This document shows, in pieces, positions 6,686-35,932 of a DNA stretch of 64,000 bases. Positions within the stretch are counted from its first letter, which is position 1. Each line of letters begins with the position of its first letter. The translations under genes and the position numbers were made by a program. A model generated the notes under the pieces. That model worked only from the letters and a program-made list of their open reading frames with translations. It was not told the DNA's origin and ran no database searches. The DNA comes from a bacterium (GTDB lineage: Bacteria; UBA8248). The DNA lies in contig JAJEJD010000012.1 of NCBI GenBank assembly GCA_022828125.1, forward strand, positions 65,309 to 129,308, in the 5' to 3' direction.

Positions 6686-6885
6686 GCGAGATATTCCTCT
6701 TTTCGTTTATATGCGCCGCGCCCGAAAGCGGCGGCTGGGCACCAGATATCAAAGGGATGATATACCAGTCCCGTAGCGTCAATGAAACCGGGAGCCGGGG
6801 ACGCGAACCCGTATTTCCAAAACCGGCTCCCTGCGCTATCCTGTTGTTTTATCAGATAGAAACCACCCCGAAACAGGAGACCCCA

Positions 6886-7925
6886 TGGAAGCGGTGAGTG
6901 AAGCGGCGGACGTCTATGAGGCGATGGAGACGTATCACGATAAAGGCTGGACGGACGGCCTGCCCGTGGTTCCCCCGACGCCTGACCTTCTGGAGCGTTT
7001 TCTGGAGGCTTCGGGACTCGACGCCGATGACGTCGTCTTCCATCTGGCGGAGCGAAAAAGAACCGTCCGGGCCGGAAAAGTGGCCTTGAACGCTATCATG
7101 GCGGGGTGTCTGCCCTCTTATATGCCCGTCATACTCGCTGCGCTCGAAGCCATGGCCGATCCGGCCTACAACATTCACTCGAGCGCCACGAGCACAGGCG
7201 GAGCGGCGCCCTTCATGGTCGTGAACGGCCCGGTTCGCCATGAAACAGGCATGAACATGCAGGGCAACATTTACGGGCCGGGCAACCGCGCGGGCGCGAC
7301 GATAGGCCGCGCGCTCAGGCTCATCATCATCAATTGCCTGGGTTCGAAACCGGGCCTTCTGGATCGCTCTACCCAGGGGAATCCGGGCAAATACAGCTTC
7401 ACTTTCGCCGAATGGGAGGAGACGAGCCCTTGGGAGCCACTTAACGTCGAACTCGGCTATTCGGCCGAGACGAGCACGGTAACGCTTCTCGCCGCCGAGG
7501 GTCCGCACAACATCCAGAACCATTACGGAAAGGGGCGGGGAATCGCGGAAACCGCCGCCGCCACAATGGCAGGCTTGGGCAGCATGAGCGAGGGGCAATC
7601 CTGTTTCGTCTTCGCGCCCGAGCACGCGCATCTGCTGGCCGAGGAATTTCCCGCGAAAGAAAAACTGAAAGAGTATCTGTTTGAAAACGCGACGCTTCCC
7701 TTGAGCAGGCTCCTGCGCACCGGCAAGCTCGACAAGCCCATTGACGCCGATGAAAACGGCAACGTGCGCCACGCGCTCAAGCCCGATGACATCTACATCG
7801 TCGTCGCGGGTGGCGAGGCCGGCGGGCATTCCTCCTGGGTGCCCTCATGGAGCAGGCGGCGAAACGGCGAGTTCGTCACCCGCCCGGTGCTGAACGCGGC
7901 CGAGCGGCGCGAGTCTCGTGGTTGA
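6886..7925 (+). CDS. Conserved hypothetical protein, partner of the UGSC selenoprotein
   Basis: A 346-residue protein (ATG at about 6885). It opens with an acidic helix and the motif GWTDGLPVVPPTPDLLERFL. Later conserved-looking stretches are NAIMAGCLPSYMPVILAALEAM, SSATSTGGAAPFMVVNGPV, GNIYGPGNRAGATIGRALRL and AGGEAGGHSSWVPSW near the C-terminus. No signal peptide or membrane segment is evident. The GlyGly-rich loops and lone Cys residues suggest a soluble enzyme, but I do not assign a reaction. It lies 90 nt upstream of the UGSC selenoprotein gene on the same strand. From memory the two families are often neighbours, so I read them as one functional unit. An AGGAG motif sits 7 nt before the ATG. 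Confidence 0.8.
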
Positions 7926-8015
7926 AGAAAATAGCAGCAAAAGAGAAGATCGGTTGATGGACTACAAAACGAGTGAACATCCTGGCGTTGATGCACATAC
8001 AGGAGGAAGCGTTCG

Positions 8016-8561
8016 ATGAACCCCATCGTAGAAACCGCAATACCGATTTACGACCCGACCGTGGAGCCGGAGATCGAAACCGAAGACCGCACAACCCGCG
8101 ACGGCGCGCTCTCCGGCAAGCGCATCGGACTACTCTGGAACTCCAAGGTGGGCGCGGACAAGCTCATGCGCTACATACTGGATGAGTTGCGCGCGGACGG
8201 CGCGGATCCAGACCTGGCCGTCGAGCTATCCAAAGAATACGATACACGACCTGCCAAACCGGAGGTTTACGCGGAGATGGCCGAAAAATGCGACCTCGCC
8301 ATCACCGCGGTGGGCGACTGAGGCTCCTGCTCTTCGTGCAGTGTGCACGATGGAATCGAACTGGAGAAAAAAGGCGTCCCCACCGCCGTCATCTGCACCG
8401 AGCCGTTCCGGCCCACGGTCGAGATGGTTTCGAAGGTCCGCGGCATGCCGGACTATCCGGTAGCCTATATCCCCCATCCGGTGGGCAGCTTGACGGATGA
8501 GCAACTACAGGGGCGCGCGAAAGAGGTCGCTCCCACGATCAGGGCGCTTCTCACGGGCTGA
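8016..8561 (+). CDS. UGSC-family selenoprotein (in-frame UGA = Sec102)
   Basis: The reading frame from ATG 8016 meets a TGA at 8319-8321 and continues in the same frame to 8561. Reading the UGA as selenocysteine gives 181 residues with a U102-G-S-C-S-S-C centre, the defining motif of the UGSC (seleno)protein family. Both flanks are conserved-looking: AEKCDLAITAVGD before, and CSVHDGIELEKKGVPTAVIC then MPDYPVAYIPHPVGSL after. The motif resembles a redox-active Sec/Cys pair (Sec102, Cys105, Cys108). Gene callers would report two fragments or a pseudogene. A 7-bp hairpin 12 nt after the UGA is a candidate bacterial SECIS. The AGGAGG Shine-Dalgarno is strong. The catalytic role of the family is not known to me. 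Confidence 0.88.
8334..8350 (+). promoter_or_regulatory. Candidate bacterial SECIS hairpin of the UGSC gene
   Basis: A perfect 7-bp inverted repeat TCGTGCA/TGCACGA with a 3-nt GTG loop (8341-8343) begins 12 nt after the UGA codon. That is the position expected for a bSECIS element bound by SelB. An alternative short stem CTGC/GCAG overlaps it. It lies inside the coding sequence, as bacterial SECIS elements do. Confidence 0.55.
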
Positions 8562-8581: not shown

Positions 8582-9463
8582 CTACATCGCTTTCAAAGCG
8601 ATGATCGCCCCTCCCGCGACGACGCATACCGTCCCGAGCAAAATGGGTGGCGTGATGCGCTCCATGTCGCGCAGGAATATCCAGGTGTACAAGAGCGCGA
8701 AAAGCGGCGCCGTGGATGAGAGCGGCGACACGACGGATATGTCTCCATATTTCAAAGCGGCGAAATGACTCAAAAACGCCAGCGTGTTGATGAGCCCGCA
8801 GGGGCCATAGAAATGCCATGCCTTCCCCCATTTGAGAGAAGGGCGCTGGGGTTTAGGCAGAAACCACAACACCGCGACCAGCGCCACCAAACCGAAAAAA
8901 CTGGTGAGCGTGATGCCGAGCAGCGCCGAGGGTACGACCTCGATCCCGATTTTTCTGAAAATGTTCGACGTGGAAAACCCCAGAACGGACAAGAGCGGCA
9001 GCCAGATGGCGCGCCTGTCCCAGGGAGCGTCGCTCTTGCGCTGATAGGTGATCCCCACACAGCCCAAAACGACCAGGAAAATCCCCGCCCACACGTAAGG
9101 CCCCGGCCGCTCCCCAAGAAAGATATAGGCGAAACCGGCCGAAAACAGCGGGTTGGCCGCCAGGAGGGGCACTGCGCGTGAGACGCCCAAGCGATGTATC
9201 GCCCGGAACATGAACACGCGGCCGAGCGAGGGTCCCGTGATGCCCGACAGAAAGAACCAGAACCAGGCTTCCGAACTCCAATAGGCGGGCTCCCAGGTGA
9301 GGATGGTCAGCGCCACCAGCCAGGGGACGTTCACAATCAGACCGATGACGACACCCGTGATGGCCGTGCCGTGCCGCTGCCCGCGCCTGGCGATGAGGCT
9401 GAAGGCCGAAGACATCGACGCGGTGCCCAGGGCGAACCCTGCCGCCAGCAGCGCATCGTTCAT
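8582..9463 (-). CDS. EamA/DMT-superfamily transporter (paralogue 1)
   Basis: A 293-residue protein made of two repeats of about five membrane helices, typical of the drug/metabolite transporter superfamily. Second-repeat hallmark segments are GDISVVSPLSSTAPLFALLYTWIFL and LLGTVCVVAGGAIIALKAM. It is clearly similar to the product at 12047-12928 along its length (both have WEPA near helix 2, GVARAVPL/GVSRAVPL, LGERPGPY and the C-terminal PPILLGT/WPILLGT). SD GGAGATG precedes the ATG. It is the distal gene of a minus-strand run that includes a copper-type trio. Substrate unknown. Confidence 0.88.
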   Translation of the reverse strand: MNDALLAAGFALGTASMSSAFSLIARRGQRHGTAITGVVIGLIVNVPWLVALTILTWEPAYWSSEAWFWFFLSGITGPSLGRVFMFRAIHRLGVSRAVPLLAANPLFSAGFAYIFLGERPGPYVWAGIFLVVLGCVGITYQRKSDAPWDRRAIWLPLLSVLGFSTSNIFRKIGIEVVPSALLGITLTSFFGLVALVAVLWFLPKPQRPSLKWGKAWHFYGPCGLINTLAFLSHFAALKYGDISVVSPLSSTAPLFALLYTWIFLRDMERITPPILLGTVCVVAGGAIIALKAM

Positions 9464-9617: not shown

Positions 9618-11069
9618 TCAGCCCCCCGTTATCGGCTGTGCGATGATCCACAAACTCACCATGGTGTAACCCACCATGAGGACGAGCATCGGATATTGGC
9701 TGCGCACGGCGGCGAAGCGATTATCGAGTGCGCGCAACGCCGTCACGTGCGCCAGATAGACGGCGCATATATGCCCGATGACGATCGCCACGATCGAAGC
9801 GTACCAAGTCGTCTTCGCGCCGATGATTCCGATATCGACCTTATAGGCAGCGGTTCCCCAGAGGTTCCAGCCCACTCCGAAGGGGTCCGACAGCAGCGGG
9901 ATGATGCGTTGCCCCTGAATGAAGAGAAAGGAGAAATAATGCGCCACGTGATATCCAATCGCGATGGGAACCAGCGAAAGCACGAACAGGCGCGCGAATT
10001 CCCCCGTGGAGAGTGCGCTCCCGCTCATGGCGCGCATCAGAATGCAGAACAGGTAATACACTCCCAGGAAGAGTATCGGAGCCGCGATGAGCGCGATGGT
10101 GTCCGCCACGAGCAGCGCATCACGTCCCACCCAGATGACTCCTTCGTACATCCACGCACGAAGCAAGTGCCATAGCGGTGTTTCGGTAAAGCCGTCGAAA
10201 CTCACCGTCGCCAGCATCAACACAACCAACACCACCATAGAGTTGCTCATACCGTCTGTGTTCAGAAGGCCCACAGCCGGCGGCCTCAGACGCCATTCAT
10301 TTCTTCCGTTTCCGCTCACGCGCGCCTCTGTGATCGAGAAGCGTCCCATTACACCGAAGATGATGGAAAACGCCTCCCCGCGCCTAAGCCACGCTTCTTT
10401 GCCGTACAGGAACATGCCCGTCCAGGTGATGATGGAATACCCGAGGGCGGCTACTGCGAGGTTAAGAGGAAGGTCGTTGTGCGGCCAGACGATCTCCGCC
10501 CAGGCGAACCACAGGAACAAGCCCACAGCCGGCCACACGCCCGGGCTTTCGGTGAACGGTTGCTCTGGCGATAACGAACCGCCGGGCGTGATTTTCCGGT
10601 ACAGCGCCTCCGCCCCGGAAAATATGATGCTCCATGGATTCACCAGCGACCACAGGTTCCCCGCCAGTGCGCATATATAGGCCAGACCAACCCACCAGAT
10701 GATCCAGACCATCGTGGGCGCGATGTTCTTATCCGGGTTTTCGCTCCCCCAGAACCCCGCCGCCAGCGTCACGCAGAACAAAACGACGGAAAGCGCTCGT
10801 ATCACCGACAAGAAACCCGCACCCCCCATCCACCCGAGAAGGGGGGAAGCGAGAAGGTCGCAACTCGGATAGTCCACGCTATCCTGTTTTTTGCGTACGA
10901 AAAGTCCCATGCCCAAAAACGAAAGCACCACGGATGCGCCCGCCCCGAGCATGAACAAACCCAGCGGCACGGGCAAATCATACCTTTGACCGAACCCATG
11001 CGCCGATACGGATGCGGGAGAAAACGCGATGAGGGCAACGAGGCCCAGCCCTCGGACGTAGGAGTTCAC
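9618..11069 (-). CDS. Polytopic membrane protein next to a cupredoxin-like gene
   Basis: A 483-residue protein starting at GTG (GAGG 8 nt upstream). The N-terminus VNSYVRGLGLVALIAFSPASVSAHGFGQ looks like a signal peptide ending in AHG. About ten further hydrophobic segments follow, beginning with LPVPLGLFMLGAGASVVLSFLGMGLF. I associate the AHGxGQRYDLPxPL opening with a family often labelled 'fenitrothion hydrolase' in databases; that label is from memory and may not describe the real role. It lies 13 nt downstream of the cupredoxin-like gene, so one operon is likely. Metal handling or respiratory assembly is an inference from neighbours only. Confidence 0.78.
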   Translation of the reverse strand: MNSYVRGLGLVALIAFSPASVSAHGFGQRYDLPVPLGLFMLGAGASVVLSFLGMGLFVRKKQDSVDYPSCDLLASPLLGWMGGAGFLSVIRALSVVLFCVTLAAGFWGSENPDKNIAPTMVWIIWWVGLAYICALAGNLWSLVNPWSIIFSGAEALYRKITPGGSLSPEQPFTESPGVWPAVGLFLWFAWAEIVWPHNDLPLNLAVAALGYSIITWTGMFLYGKEAWLRRGEAFSIIFGVMGRFSITEARVSGNGRNEWRLRPPAVGLLNTDGMSNSMVVLVVLMLATVSFDGFTETPLWHLLRAWMYEGVIWVGRDALLVADTIALIAAPILFLGVYYLFCILMRAMSGSALSTGEFARLFVLSLVPIAIGYHVAHYFSFLFIQGQRIIPLLSDPFGVGWNLWGTAAYKVDIGIIGAKTTWYASIVAIVIGHICAVYLAHVTALRALDNRFAAVRSQYPMLVLMVGYTMVSLWIIAQPITGG

Positions 11070-11082
11070 AGGATTGGCCTCA

Positions 11083-11508
11083 TCATGGATGCACCTCCAG
11101 GTAGAAGAGCACCTTCTCGCCGTGGCCACCGCTTTTTTTGTTCCCGTGGGAATGAGAACCATGCTCCGTTACGGGAAACCGGCCCGCCACCCTGGCCCGA
11201 AACGCCATCACGGCCACCCGGCCGGGGGAGACGGTTTTTTCGATGTCGTAGCCGTGTAGATGGACTTCCGTTGTTTTGTCGGCCATCAGATTCAATTTGA
11301 CTTCATCGCCTTGCTTTACGCGAACCACTTTTTTGTTGCTTTCGATCTTCCCACCGGCGATTTTGAGCGTGACGCCGCCCATCTCCTCGCTTTTTATCGG
11401 GGATTTCCGCCCTGGATGAGCGCTGTCTTTATCCGCACTTTGAGCCGGAATTGCCTGTAAAAGAGCGATCAGCGCAAAAACACAAAAAGCCTTGCAAATG
11501 AATTGCAT
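11083..11508 (-). CDS. Periplasmic cupredoxin-like protein
   Basis: A 141-residue exported protein. The signal peptide MQFICKAFCVFALIALLQAIPAQSA is followed by a beta-rich domain with VTLKIAGGKIESNKKVVRVKQGDEVKLNL, EVHLHGYD and a C-terminal FYLEVHP. This is the order of strands seen in cupredoxin-like domains (COG4633/Cupredoxin_1). Candidate ligands are His residues in VHLHG, in EHGSHSHG and at the C-terminus. No Cys ligand is visible, so a classical type-1 copper site is doubtful. SD GGAGGAG is 5 nt before ATG 11508. It lies between a His-rich protein gene and a membrane protein gene, all same strand. Confidence 0.72.
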   Translation of the reverse strand: MQFICKAFCVFALIALLQAIPAQSADKDSAHPGRKSPIKSEEMGGVTLKIAGGKIESNKKVVRVKQGDEVKLNLMADKTTEVHLHGYDIEKTVSPGRVAVMAFRARVAGRFPVTEHGSHSHGNKKSGGHGEKVLFYLEVHP

Positions 11509-12046: not shown

Positions 12047-12928
12047 TCAGAGTGCGCGGCCTGCCACGAGCGCACCACCCACGACCACCGCCACAGTACC
12101 CAGAAGAATCGGCCAGGTGATGCGCTCGAACTTGCGCAGGAATATGGCCGTAAGAAGCAACGCCCACAAAGGCGCAGTGGCGGCGAGCGGAATGACGATG
12201 GTGAGGTCGCCGTAGTGAAGGCCATAAAGATGCAGGAGAACCGAAAGAGTATTCAGCAAACCGCCGATGCTGTACGCCACCCATGCTTTTTTCACCATTA
12301 GCGAGGGCCTTAAGCCACGCGGCAAATACTGCCCAAAGATATAGAGGAAGACACCTCCAGAGACGCTCATTATCGATATGCCCAGATACGGATTGGGTGT
12401 TGAACCTATTCCGAGTTTTCGAAGCATGTGCGAGACGGAGAAGAAAACCACGCTTCCGAGTGCGATGAGCAGGTAGCTTCCACGGGTGGGCTGAGTCCCT
12501 CCCCTTTTCGCCGTAATCCCCATACATCCCAAAACGATGAGCACCGTACCCGCCAGAATGTACGGCCCCGGCCTCTCGCCCAAGACATAGATACCTATGA
12601 TCGCCGAGAAAAGCGGCATGGTGGAGTTGAGCGGCACCGCGCGCGCCACGCCCATCAGATGAATCGAATGGAAGAAGCACACCCTTCCTACGGCGGGCCC
12701 CGCGACCCCGGCCAGCGCGAAGAACAACCAGCCCAGAGGCTGGTAGTGGGCGGGCTCCCACGTCCATACAGCACCCACGAGCAGCGGCGGCATGGATACG
12801 ATGAGCCCGATGAGTACGCCCGATACCGCGTTCGCGTGCCGCTGCCCGCTTCTCACGAACAGGGTAAAGGAGCCGACCACGAGCGCCGTTGAAAGCGAGA
12901 AAAGAACAGAGAGGGTGGTGGTGGTCAT
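12047..12928 (-). CDS. EamA/DMT-superfamily transporter (paralogue 2)
   Basis: A 293-residue transporter from ATG 12928 (TTG at 12949 is an alternative start). It has a ten-helix, two-repeat DMT plan with RSGQRHANAVSGVLIGLIVSM near the start, GVARAVPLNSTMPLFSAIIG, LGERPGPYILAG and GDLTIVIPLAATAPLWALLLTAIFL. It is a paralogue of 8582-9463. The two copies bracket the His-rich/cupredoxin/membrane trio on the same strand, which suggests a duplication with an insertion, or an operon with two exporters. Substrate unknown. Confidence 0.88.
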   Translation of the reverse strand: MTTTTLSVLFSLSTALVVGSFTLFVRSGQRHANAVSGVLIGLIVSMPPLLVGAVWTWEPAHYQPLGWLFFALAGVAGPAVGRVCFFHSIHLMGVARAVPLNSTMPLFSAIIGIYVLGERPGPYILAGTVLIVLGCMGITAKRGGTQPTRGSYLLIALGSVVFFSVSHMLRKLGIGSTPNPYLGISIMSVSGGVFLYIFGQYLPRGLRPSLMVKKAWVAYSIGGLLNTLSVLLHLYGLHYGDLTIVIPLAATAPLWALLLTAIFLRKFERITWPILLGTVAVVVGGALVAGRAL

Positions 12929-12984
12929 AAGAAATAAGGGTTTTGGCAACTGATGAGTGCAATATTCAGCTTGCCACTCCCAAT

Positions 12985-35654: not shown

Positions 35655-35805
35655 AGACTCGAGGTCCATGTCAGTAATGACCCCGCCTTGTGCCGTGTGA
35701 GGTTCGCTTTGAACCCAGCTTTCGCCAGGTGGGCGTCCAAGTCCATGGCTTTAGGCCGAACTCCCCGAGAGGAATAGCTCACCACCCTGGGTCAGGACTC
35801 CCGGT
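35655..35805 (-). ncRNA. ssrS: 6S RNA candidate
   Basis: The 337-nt gap between zapA and fau has no gene, and in many Proteobacteria this gap holds 6S RNA. The minus strand can fold into a long rod. Closing pairs are GAGTCC/GGACCTC and TGACCC/GGGTCA (35794-35789 with 35683-35678). An inner GAGTTCG (35763-35757) pairs with CGAACCTC (35706-35699), and an apical ACCTGGC-GAAA-GCTGGGT hairpin covers 35730-35713. A TACTAT -10-like box lies just upstream. Position and shape fit; ends and identity are inferred. Confidence 0.5.
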
Positions 35806-35932
35806 ACAATAGTACTGGGTCAAAATGCTTTCCCCCATCACGAACACGGCAGGGTCAAAGCAAAAGAGCATTATGGCATTAAAACCTGGGGATGAATACA
35901 GGGAAAAGCTACTGCGTGAAGAAAACGACTGA

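Follow-up and report, generated by a model that had tools for sequence, protein, structure and literature searches.

Background

GrdB is the substrate-attacking subunit of the glycine, betaine and sarcosine reductases. According to the available part of one source, the proposed course of the glycine reductase reaction leads through a carboxymethyl selenoether on a selenocysteine (Sec) to a selenenyl-sulfide, for which thioredoxin serves as the reductant (PMC10298544). For farB and farE of Cloacibacillus porcorum MFA1, cleavage of a C-F bond has been proposed, and the accessible sections of that report describe eight Sec-containing grdB genes as substrate-specific modules (PMC10838667). A second group of selenoproteins, the UGSC family, contributed 255 sequences to the Global Ocean Sampling data, where few selenoproteins were more abundant, and was also seen fused to a domain designated 'Unknown_1', as given in the accessible text of a metagenome paper from 2008 (PMC2398784). 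The portions available of a 2026 review list UGSC among the families with largely uncharacterised functions (PMC13188914).

A UGSC gene divided by an in-frame UGA

The window, i.e. the whole analyzed stretch of 64,000 nucleotides, contains the following features at the locus considered here:

8001-8006, forward strand: Shine-Dalgarno sequence AGGAGG, read from the sequence; strong, 9 nt upstream of the ATG at 8016
8016..8561, forward strand: UGSC-family selenoprotein gene, 181 aa across one UGA; stop TGA at 8559-8561
8319..8321, forward strand: UGA read as Sec (residue 102)
8334..8350, forward strand: bacterial SECIS-type hairpin of 7 pairs with arms 8334-8340 and 8344-8350 and the apical loop GUG at 8341-8343

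A mechanical ORF list divides the gene into two ORFs of the same frame, at 8016-8321 (101 aa) and 8343-8561 (72 aa, with a GTG start). The original prediction had interpreted these as one UGSC-family selenoprotein behind a strong Shine-Dalgarno sequence, and both statements are borne out. Between the ATG at 8016 and the TGA at 8559-8561 the frame is uninterrupted except for TGA 8319-8321, and read-through translation with this codon as Sec yields a protein of 181 aa, in which the residues around Sec102 are D-U-G-S-C-S-S-C-S-V-H-D and include the predicted U-G-S-C-S-S-C. This protein matches NF041046 with 145.4 bits (curated cut-off 125; residues 34-180) and PF24696 with 183.1 bits (curated cut-off 25; residues 11-180). 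Judged by these profile matches, the window gene is a member of the known UGSC selenoprotein family, with which it shares the U-G-S-C Sec motif and from which it shows no essential difference.

Recoding of the UGA

Comparative sequence analysis makes it nearly certain that the UGA of the window gene is recoded as selenocysteine, aided by the SECIS-type hairpin. The same genome was found to encode selA (575.9 bits), selB (384.5 bits), selD (334.9 bits) and tRNA-Sec (75.9 bits), all scoring over cut-off, so that the Sec machinery on which the predicted recoding depends is present; its selD carries one in-frame TGA itself. Eight UGSC paralogues occur in this genome, each with exactly one in-frame TGA. 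These TGAs coincide in the alignment, in which the paralogues are about 30% identical to the window copy. Among 61 surveyed genomes, comprising the window's own and 60 relatives, the family is present in 21, and one internal TGA was located in 94 of 95 matches, the lone match without it being a fragment that misses the site. The readable UGSC genes of 80 loci from several phyla (L078-L157) have TGA at the Sec codon in 82 cases and TGC in one. A second set of homologues harbors TGA in three, Cys in 11 and Met in two members at this position; Sec or Cys, as anticipated for residue 102, is therefore found in nearly all homologues. All 61 aligned homologues match NF041046, and the second Cys of U-G-S-C is present in 132 of 135 motifs, with Ser in the other three, including one copy from the window's genome (U-G-S-S).

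The coding potential behind the UGA was assessed with six orthologues from the same genus. Their differences lie mostly in third codon positions on both sides of the UGA (in L063, 3, 2 and 33 differences at codon positions 1, 2 and 3 before the UGA, and 2, 2 and 23 after it), and a stop 3' of the UGA occurs in none of the six. This pattern indicates that the stretch 3' of the UGA is under in-frame purifying selection and agrees with the earlier claim that the frame stays coding on both sides of the TGA.

The hairpin begins 12 nt 3' of the UGA, as had been predicted together with its 7 pairs. In an alignment of 60 homologues 94.0% of the stem cells are paired, compared with at most 55.7% in controls with slid partner columns, and 36 double-changed stem cells were observed vs 13.7 in shuffles; the G-U of the loop is invariant (60/60 sequences). 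Homologues with Cys or Met form on average 4.4 of the 7 pairs (n=14), vs 6.6 of 7 in the Sec set (n=60), although five of the 14 still form at least 6. Since the stem is weaker in these homologues, coding constraint alone does not produce it. Taken by itself the window sequence does not fold into an unusual hairpin (z -0.53); the support for the hairpin is the covariation over 60 aligned sequences, not the fold of a single one.

That unremarkable single-sequence fold, and the division of the gene by mechanical ORF calling, are what could be expected of a broken gene, a sequencing error or a true stop between two separate ORFs. This explanation is nevertheless highly improbable in view of the internal TGA in 94/95 matches from 21 genomes and in 82/83 UGSC genes across several phyla, the purifying selection 3' of the UGA, the covarying hairpin and the full Sec machinery. 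A pseudogene or sequencing error was rejected on these grounds, in line with the original view that the gene is not broken. An altered code, in which UGA would specify Trp in this organism, has next to no probability; nothing was found in its favor, and it was likewise rejected, because TGA also terminates the window gene, tRNA-Sec, SelA and SelB are present, and relatives without Sec carry Cys (or Met) and not Trp at the homologous residue. SelB-like ORFs form one cluster with members in four of 88 UGSC loci (Pfam-confirmed in one, L156), and an annotated selB is located close to a UGSC-partner pair in Paracoccus ferrooxidans.

Pairing with a partner gene

The UGSC gene starts 90 bases behind the end of a second gene on the same strand, which is referred to here as the partner:

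6885..7925, forward strand: partner gene, 346 aa, with the motifs D-G-L-P-V and M-A-G-C75; no Pfam or NCBIfam family

For the 55 members of the partner family that were compared with Pfam and NCBIfam, not one hit reached E<=0.01. The family has one nearly invariant Cys (54/55) and accounts for 15 matches in the window's genome, window copy included. From a scan of public genomes, which gave at least 581 partner relatives, the 80 loci L078-L157 already mentioned were retained. A UGSC gene is within reach of the partner in 74 of them; in two of the six remaining loci, L104 and L147, long stretches of sequence flank the partner on either side, and the other four are truncated by a contig end near the partner. 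The gene order is partner-UGSC in 58 cases and UGSC-partner in 24, with opposite strands in one. A partner is located within 1.5 kb of seven of the eight UGSC copies of the window's genome, and 23 of 28 relatives have one at this distance too. The subfamily of the contig-5 copy lacks a partner within this distance both in the window's genome and in L064, L065, L071 and L076, and none is present in L068 either. One copy of the window's genome is a UGSC-partner fusion, and single hypothetical proteins without UGA in Sporomusa, Vibrio and Variovorax plasmids are UGSC-partner fusions as well. The distance matrices of UGSC and partner are correlated with r 0.82 (80 pairs, 0/2000 permutations), a value that includes the shared ancestry of the hosts; when the seven pairs of the window's genome are taken by themselves, r is 0.64 (111/5040 permutations). 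By their linkage, fusion and co-variation, the UGSC gene is maintained as a pair with the upstream partner gene, which substantiates the earlier remark that the locus includes a partner.

Further arrangements were observed at two loci. In the window's genome, contig 5 carries a tandem of four partner-family genes (L021:11185-15329) at a distance of 2.7 kb from a UGSC gene; between them lies a gene resembling molybdenum hydroxylases. A Chloroflexi genome (L132:1623-6972) harbors three tandem UGSC-partner pairs, all with TGA.

Sequence searches of the PDB with UGSC and partner profiles revealed nothing believable, and the fold search with the partner gave no convincing match. A relationship of the partner to class I fumarases was considered and set aside (Foldseek probability <=0.77, E 2.8e-3 at best; best VIA Z 5.3, below middling), and counterparts by homology in GrdE (profile alignment 0.16%) and GrdB (0.1%) were not supported.

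Relationship of UGSC to GrdB

The window protein matches the GrdB model TIGR01917 with E 9.4e-5 over residues 88-178; the score of 21.5 bits, against a cut-off of 602.2 bits, covers model positions 333-420 of 431 only. When the 61 UGSC proteins were scanned against all NCBIfam models at E<=0.01, the UGSC model matched all 61, followed by TIGR01917 (17), TIGR01918 (7), GrdF (6), GrdH (5) and PrdB TIGR04483 (3). The C-terminal regions of ten GrdB proteins, read through their own UGA, were then compared with the 61 UGSC proteins by hhalign. This single comparison, which is not a database search, gave a probability of 95.8% and E 7.5e-9 with Sec aligned on Sec, whereas UGSC vs partner, as a control, reached 0.25% and UGSC vs GrdE 4%. 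The aligned elements of GrdB (TIGR01917, PF07355) and UGSC are a strand, U-G-x-C, a helix, G-x-P-T and I-P-H-P-x-G. As far as profile alignments can tell, the C-terminal Sec domain of GrdB and the Sec half of UGSC are homologues. However, UGSC has no N-terminal GrdB domain and stays far under the full-length score, and its partner is unrelated to GrdE (PF09338). No statement of a homology between UGSC and GrdB was found in the literature searched, which consisted mostly of papers outside subscription.

A similarly placed UxxC is present in PrdB of D-proline reductase (TIGR04483, matched by three of the 61 UGSC proteins) and in PrdB-like U-P-x-C selenoproteins. The similarity of UGSC to the profile of the short U-P-x-C proteins, a family held by relatives of the window's genome, is weak (21%, E 1e-3). 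The window's genome itself contains a GrdE-GrdB pair on contig 15 (262831-265233), in which GrdB has U-G-T-G-T-R, and the GrdB of a relative is read with a UGA in L176. PF07355 also marks three short proteins of the window's genome (contigs 19, 5 and 17), where relatives of the same genus carry U-P-L-C.

The predicted model of UGSC (pLDDT 95.4) shows a domain of alternating beta and alpha elements in which Sec opens the helix after the third strand. Its nearest solved folds, among the matches listed, are Rossmann/flavodoxin-like, and the fold matches, the best with Z 10.7, 14% identity and 2.9 A over 129 residues, are of a generic alternating alpha/beta kind from which no function was derived. 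Thioredoxins are not among the matches listed, an absence that excludes nothing; the predicted model as such does not fit the thioredoxin fold that had been supposed before.

Genomic neighborhoods

Out of 24 plasmid loci that were found, 17 were opened. A TrxB-like gene lies close to the pair in six of these, namely in Arthrobacter, Roseovarius, two Variovorax, Haloterrigena and Neorhizobium. CxxC is present in the five TrxB-like genes that were read, the one from Neorhizobium having been seen as a two-piece tblastn match only. In Arthrobacter sp. ERGS1:01 the order is trxB-trxA-partner-UGSC. A TrxA- or TrxB-like gene was found at none of the eight UGSC loci of the window's genome and adjacent to the pair in one of the 80 public-genome loci (L081); hosts that use Sec may depend on their general thioredoxin system.

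The UGSC paralogues of the window's genome have different neighbors. These are a CoA-transferase III and an FAA hydrolase on contig 19 (L019), an ABC dipeptide-type importer on contig 14, an enoyl-CoA hydratase and an acyl-CoA dehydrogenase on contig 5, two acyl-CoA dehydrogenases on contig 23, an enoyl-CoA hydratase, a CoA-transferase and a TRAP importer on contig 31, two luciferase-like monooxygenases on contig 29 and an ABC NMT1-type importer on contig 11. UGSC loci of other organisms contain malonyl-CoA synthase and decarboxylase, CoA ester lyase and TRAP/TTT genes. No single neighbor was found to recur in a way that would pin down the substrate: apart from the pair itself, the most frequent cluster has a representative that resembles a short-chain dehydrogenase by eye, occurs in 21 of 88 loci and is too generic.

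Several neighbors were recorded individually. Genes resembling ComA (phosphosulfolactate synthase family) are located near UGSC in Arthrobacter (L194:4686-5474) and in the archaeon Natrinema (L199:3874-4341). A hotdog domain of the FlK type is fused to a ThDP-dependent enzyme in L086:1800-3875, with similar ORFs in L097, L101, L111 and L150. The FlK-like and ComA-like neighbors are hints only. Near its C-terminus the Arthrobacter UGSC protein (L194:8015-8830) resembles NifU, with 27.2 bits at a Pfam cut-off of 27 bits. Plasmid-borne fusions from Sporomusa (L197:6317-8041) and Vibrio (L200:6368-8053) have Met at the Sec position, with aconitase X and DUF126 nearby. Within the window the following were observed:

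8582-9463, reverse strand: transporter gene near the pair (EamA)
12047-12949, reverse strand: similar-looking transporter gene near the pair
9618-11162, reverse strand: ORF of 514 residues with the look of a membrane protein; no Pfam or NCBIfam match at E 1
35676-35858, reverse strand: 6S RNA, 79.9 bits

Proposed function

The resemblance of UxxC to redox motifs is in keeping with the supposition of 2008 that UGSC adopts a thioredoxin-like fold and acts as a general oxidoreductase on thiol-disulfides or peroxides, for which the partner would serve as redox substrate or chaperone, and the linkage to trxB and trxA would suit a redox relay too. We consider this unlikely, however, as the confident model predicts a beta-alpha domain with Rossmann/flavodoxin-like nearest folds, the profile homology points to GrdB, and the many paralogues, each with its own set of catabolic and uptake genes nearby, are better suited to substrate-specific enzymes.

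The chances appear slightly better than even that UGSC and its partner are the two parts of a selenoenzyme that is related to GrdB and regenerated by thiols, and that the paralogues have become specialised for different organic acids or acyl-CoAs. We infer the chemistry of the pair from homology and gene context. UGSC and partner would assemble as one enzyme, in which an organic acid, or the corresponding CoA ester, would be bound and activated by the partner. Because of its homology to GrdB, UGSC would supply the attacking Sec; the selenolate, positioned at the helix start in the predicted model, would attack the activated substrate, and a bond next to the carbonyl or carboxyl group (C-N, C-S, C-O or C-halogen) would be cleaved reductively. 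A selenenyl-sulfide would then form between Sec and the Cys three residues on (U-G-S-C) and would be reduced by a thioredoxin-type system. The paralogues would represent substrate-specific versions, each in its own uptake or catabolic cluster, like the GrdB-type proteins of anaerobes. A comparable situation is that of farB and farE in C. porcorum MFA1, as far as the available part of that report describes it: many substrate-specific B-type proteins with Sec are encoded in one genome beside transporter genes, but these are GrdB and GrdE homologues in an anaerobe, whereas the Sec domain of UGSC stands alone with a different partner.

Points counted in favor of the two-part enzyme are the homology to GrdB, the pairing, fusions and co-variation with the partner, the linkage to trxB, and the CoA-related and uptake genes in the neighborhood. 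Counted against it are the absence of a Trx neighbor in the window's genome, Met at the Sec position, the missing second Cys in some copies, the contig-5 copy without partner and the low GrdB score. Since the partner is not a relative of GrdE and has no convincing fold match, the analogy to GrdB is carried by the UGSC half alone, and the Met at the Sec position of the Sporomusa and Vibrio fusions indicates that some relatives do without a chalcogen. These Met-bearing fused homologues suggest that the pair may function without redox chemistry and, together with the CoA-ester enzymes around many UGSC copies, would fit a Sec that acts as nucleophile in a non-reductive lyase, hydrolase or transferase reaction on a CoA ester, with the thiol system providing protection or repair only. 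This too seems rather improbable: the kinship with GrdB and the conserved U-G-S-C (132/135) favor a selenenyl-sulfide step, and a reductase adjoins some of the Cys forms.

Implications for the UGSC family

The analysis extends the picture of the known UGSC family by a partner that is paired with it, by its eight-fold expansion and by the link to GrdB. A GrdB-type Sec domain with a different partner in many copies was not found described in the literature searched; no paper on a UGSC protein was among the matches listed for the mycobacterial literature, and a search for literature on selenoproteins in SAR202 found none. A homologue with a known reaction (GrdB), an obligate-looking partner and cultured organisms, such as Arthrobacter sp. 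ERGS1:01 and Roseovarius sp. THAF8, that have Cys versions beside thioredoxin reductase together provide a concrete assay for UGSC function. In a wider and decidedly tentative interpretation, UGSC and its partner might add a third branch to the selenium-dependent reductases of the GrdB/PrdB class, one that would operate outside Stickland fermentation in environmental bacteria and, in the Cys form, in haloarchaea, with up to eight substrate-specific copies per genome that may reductively cleave heteroatom-carbon bonds of dissolved organic acids.
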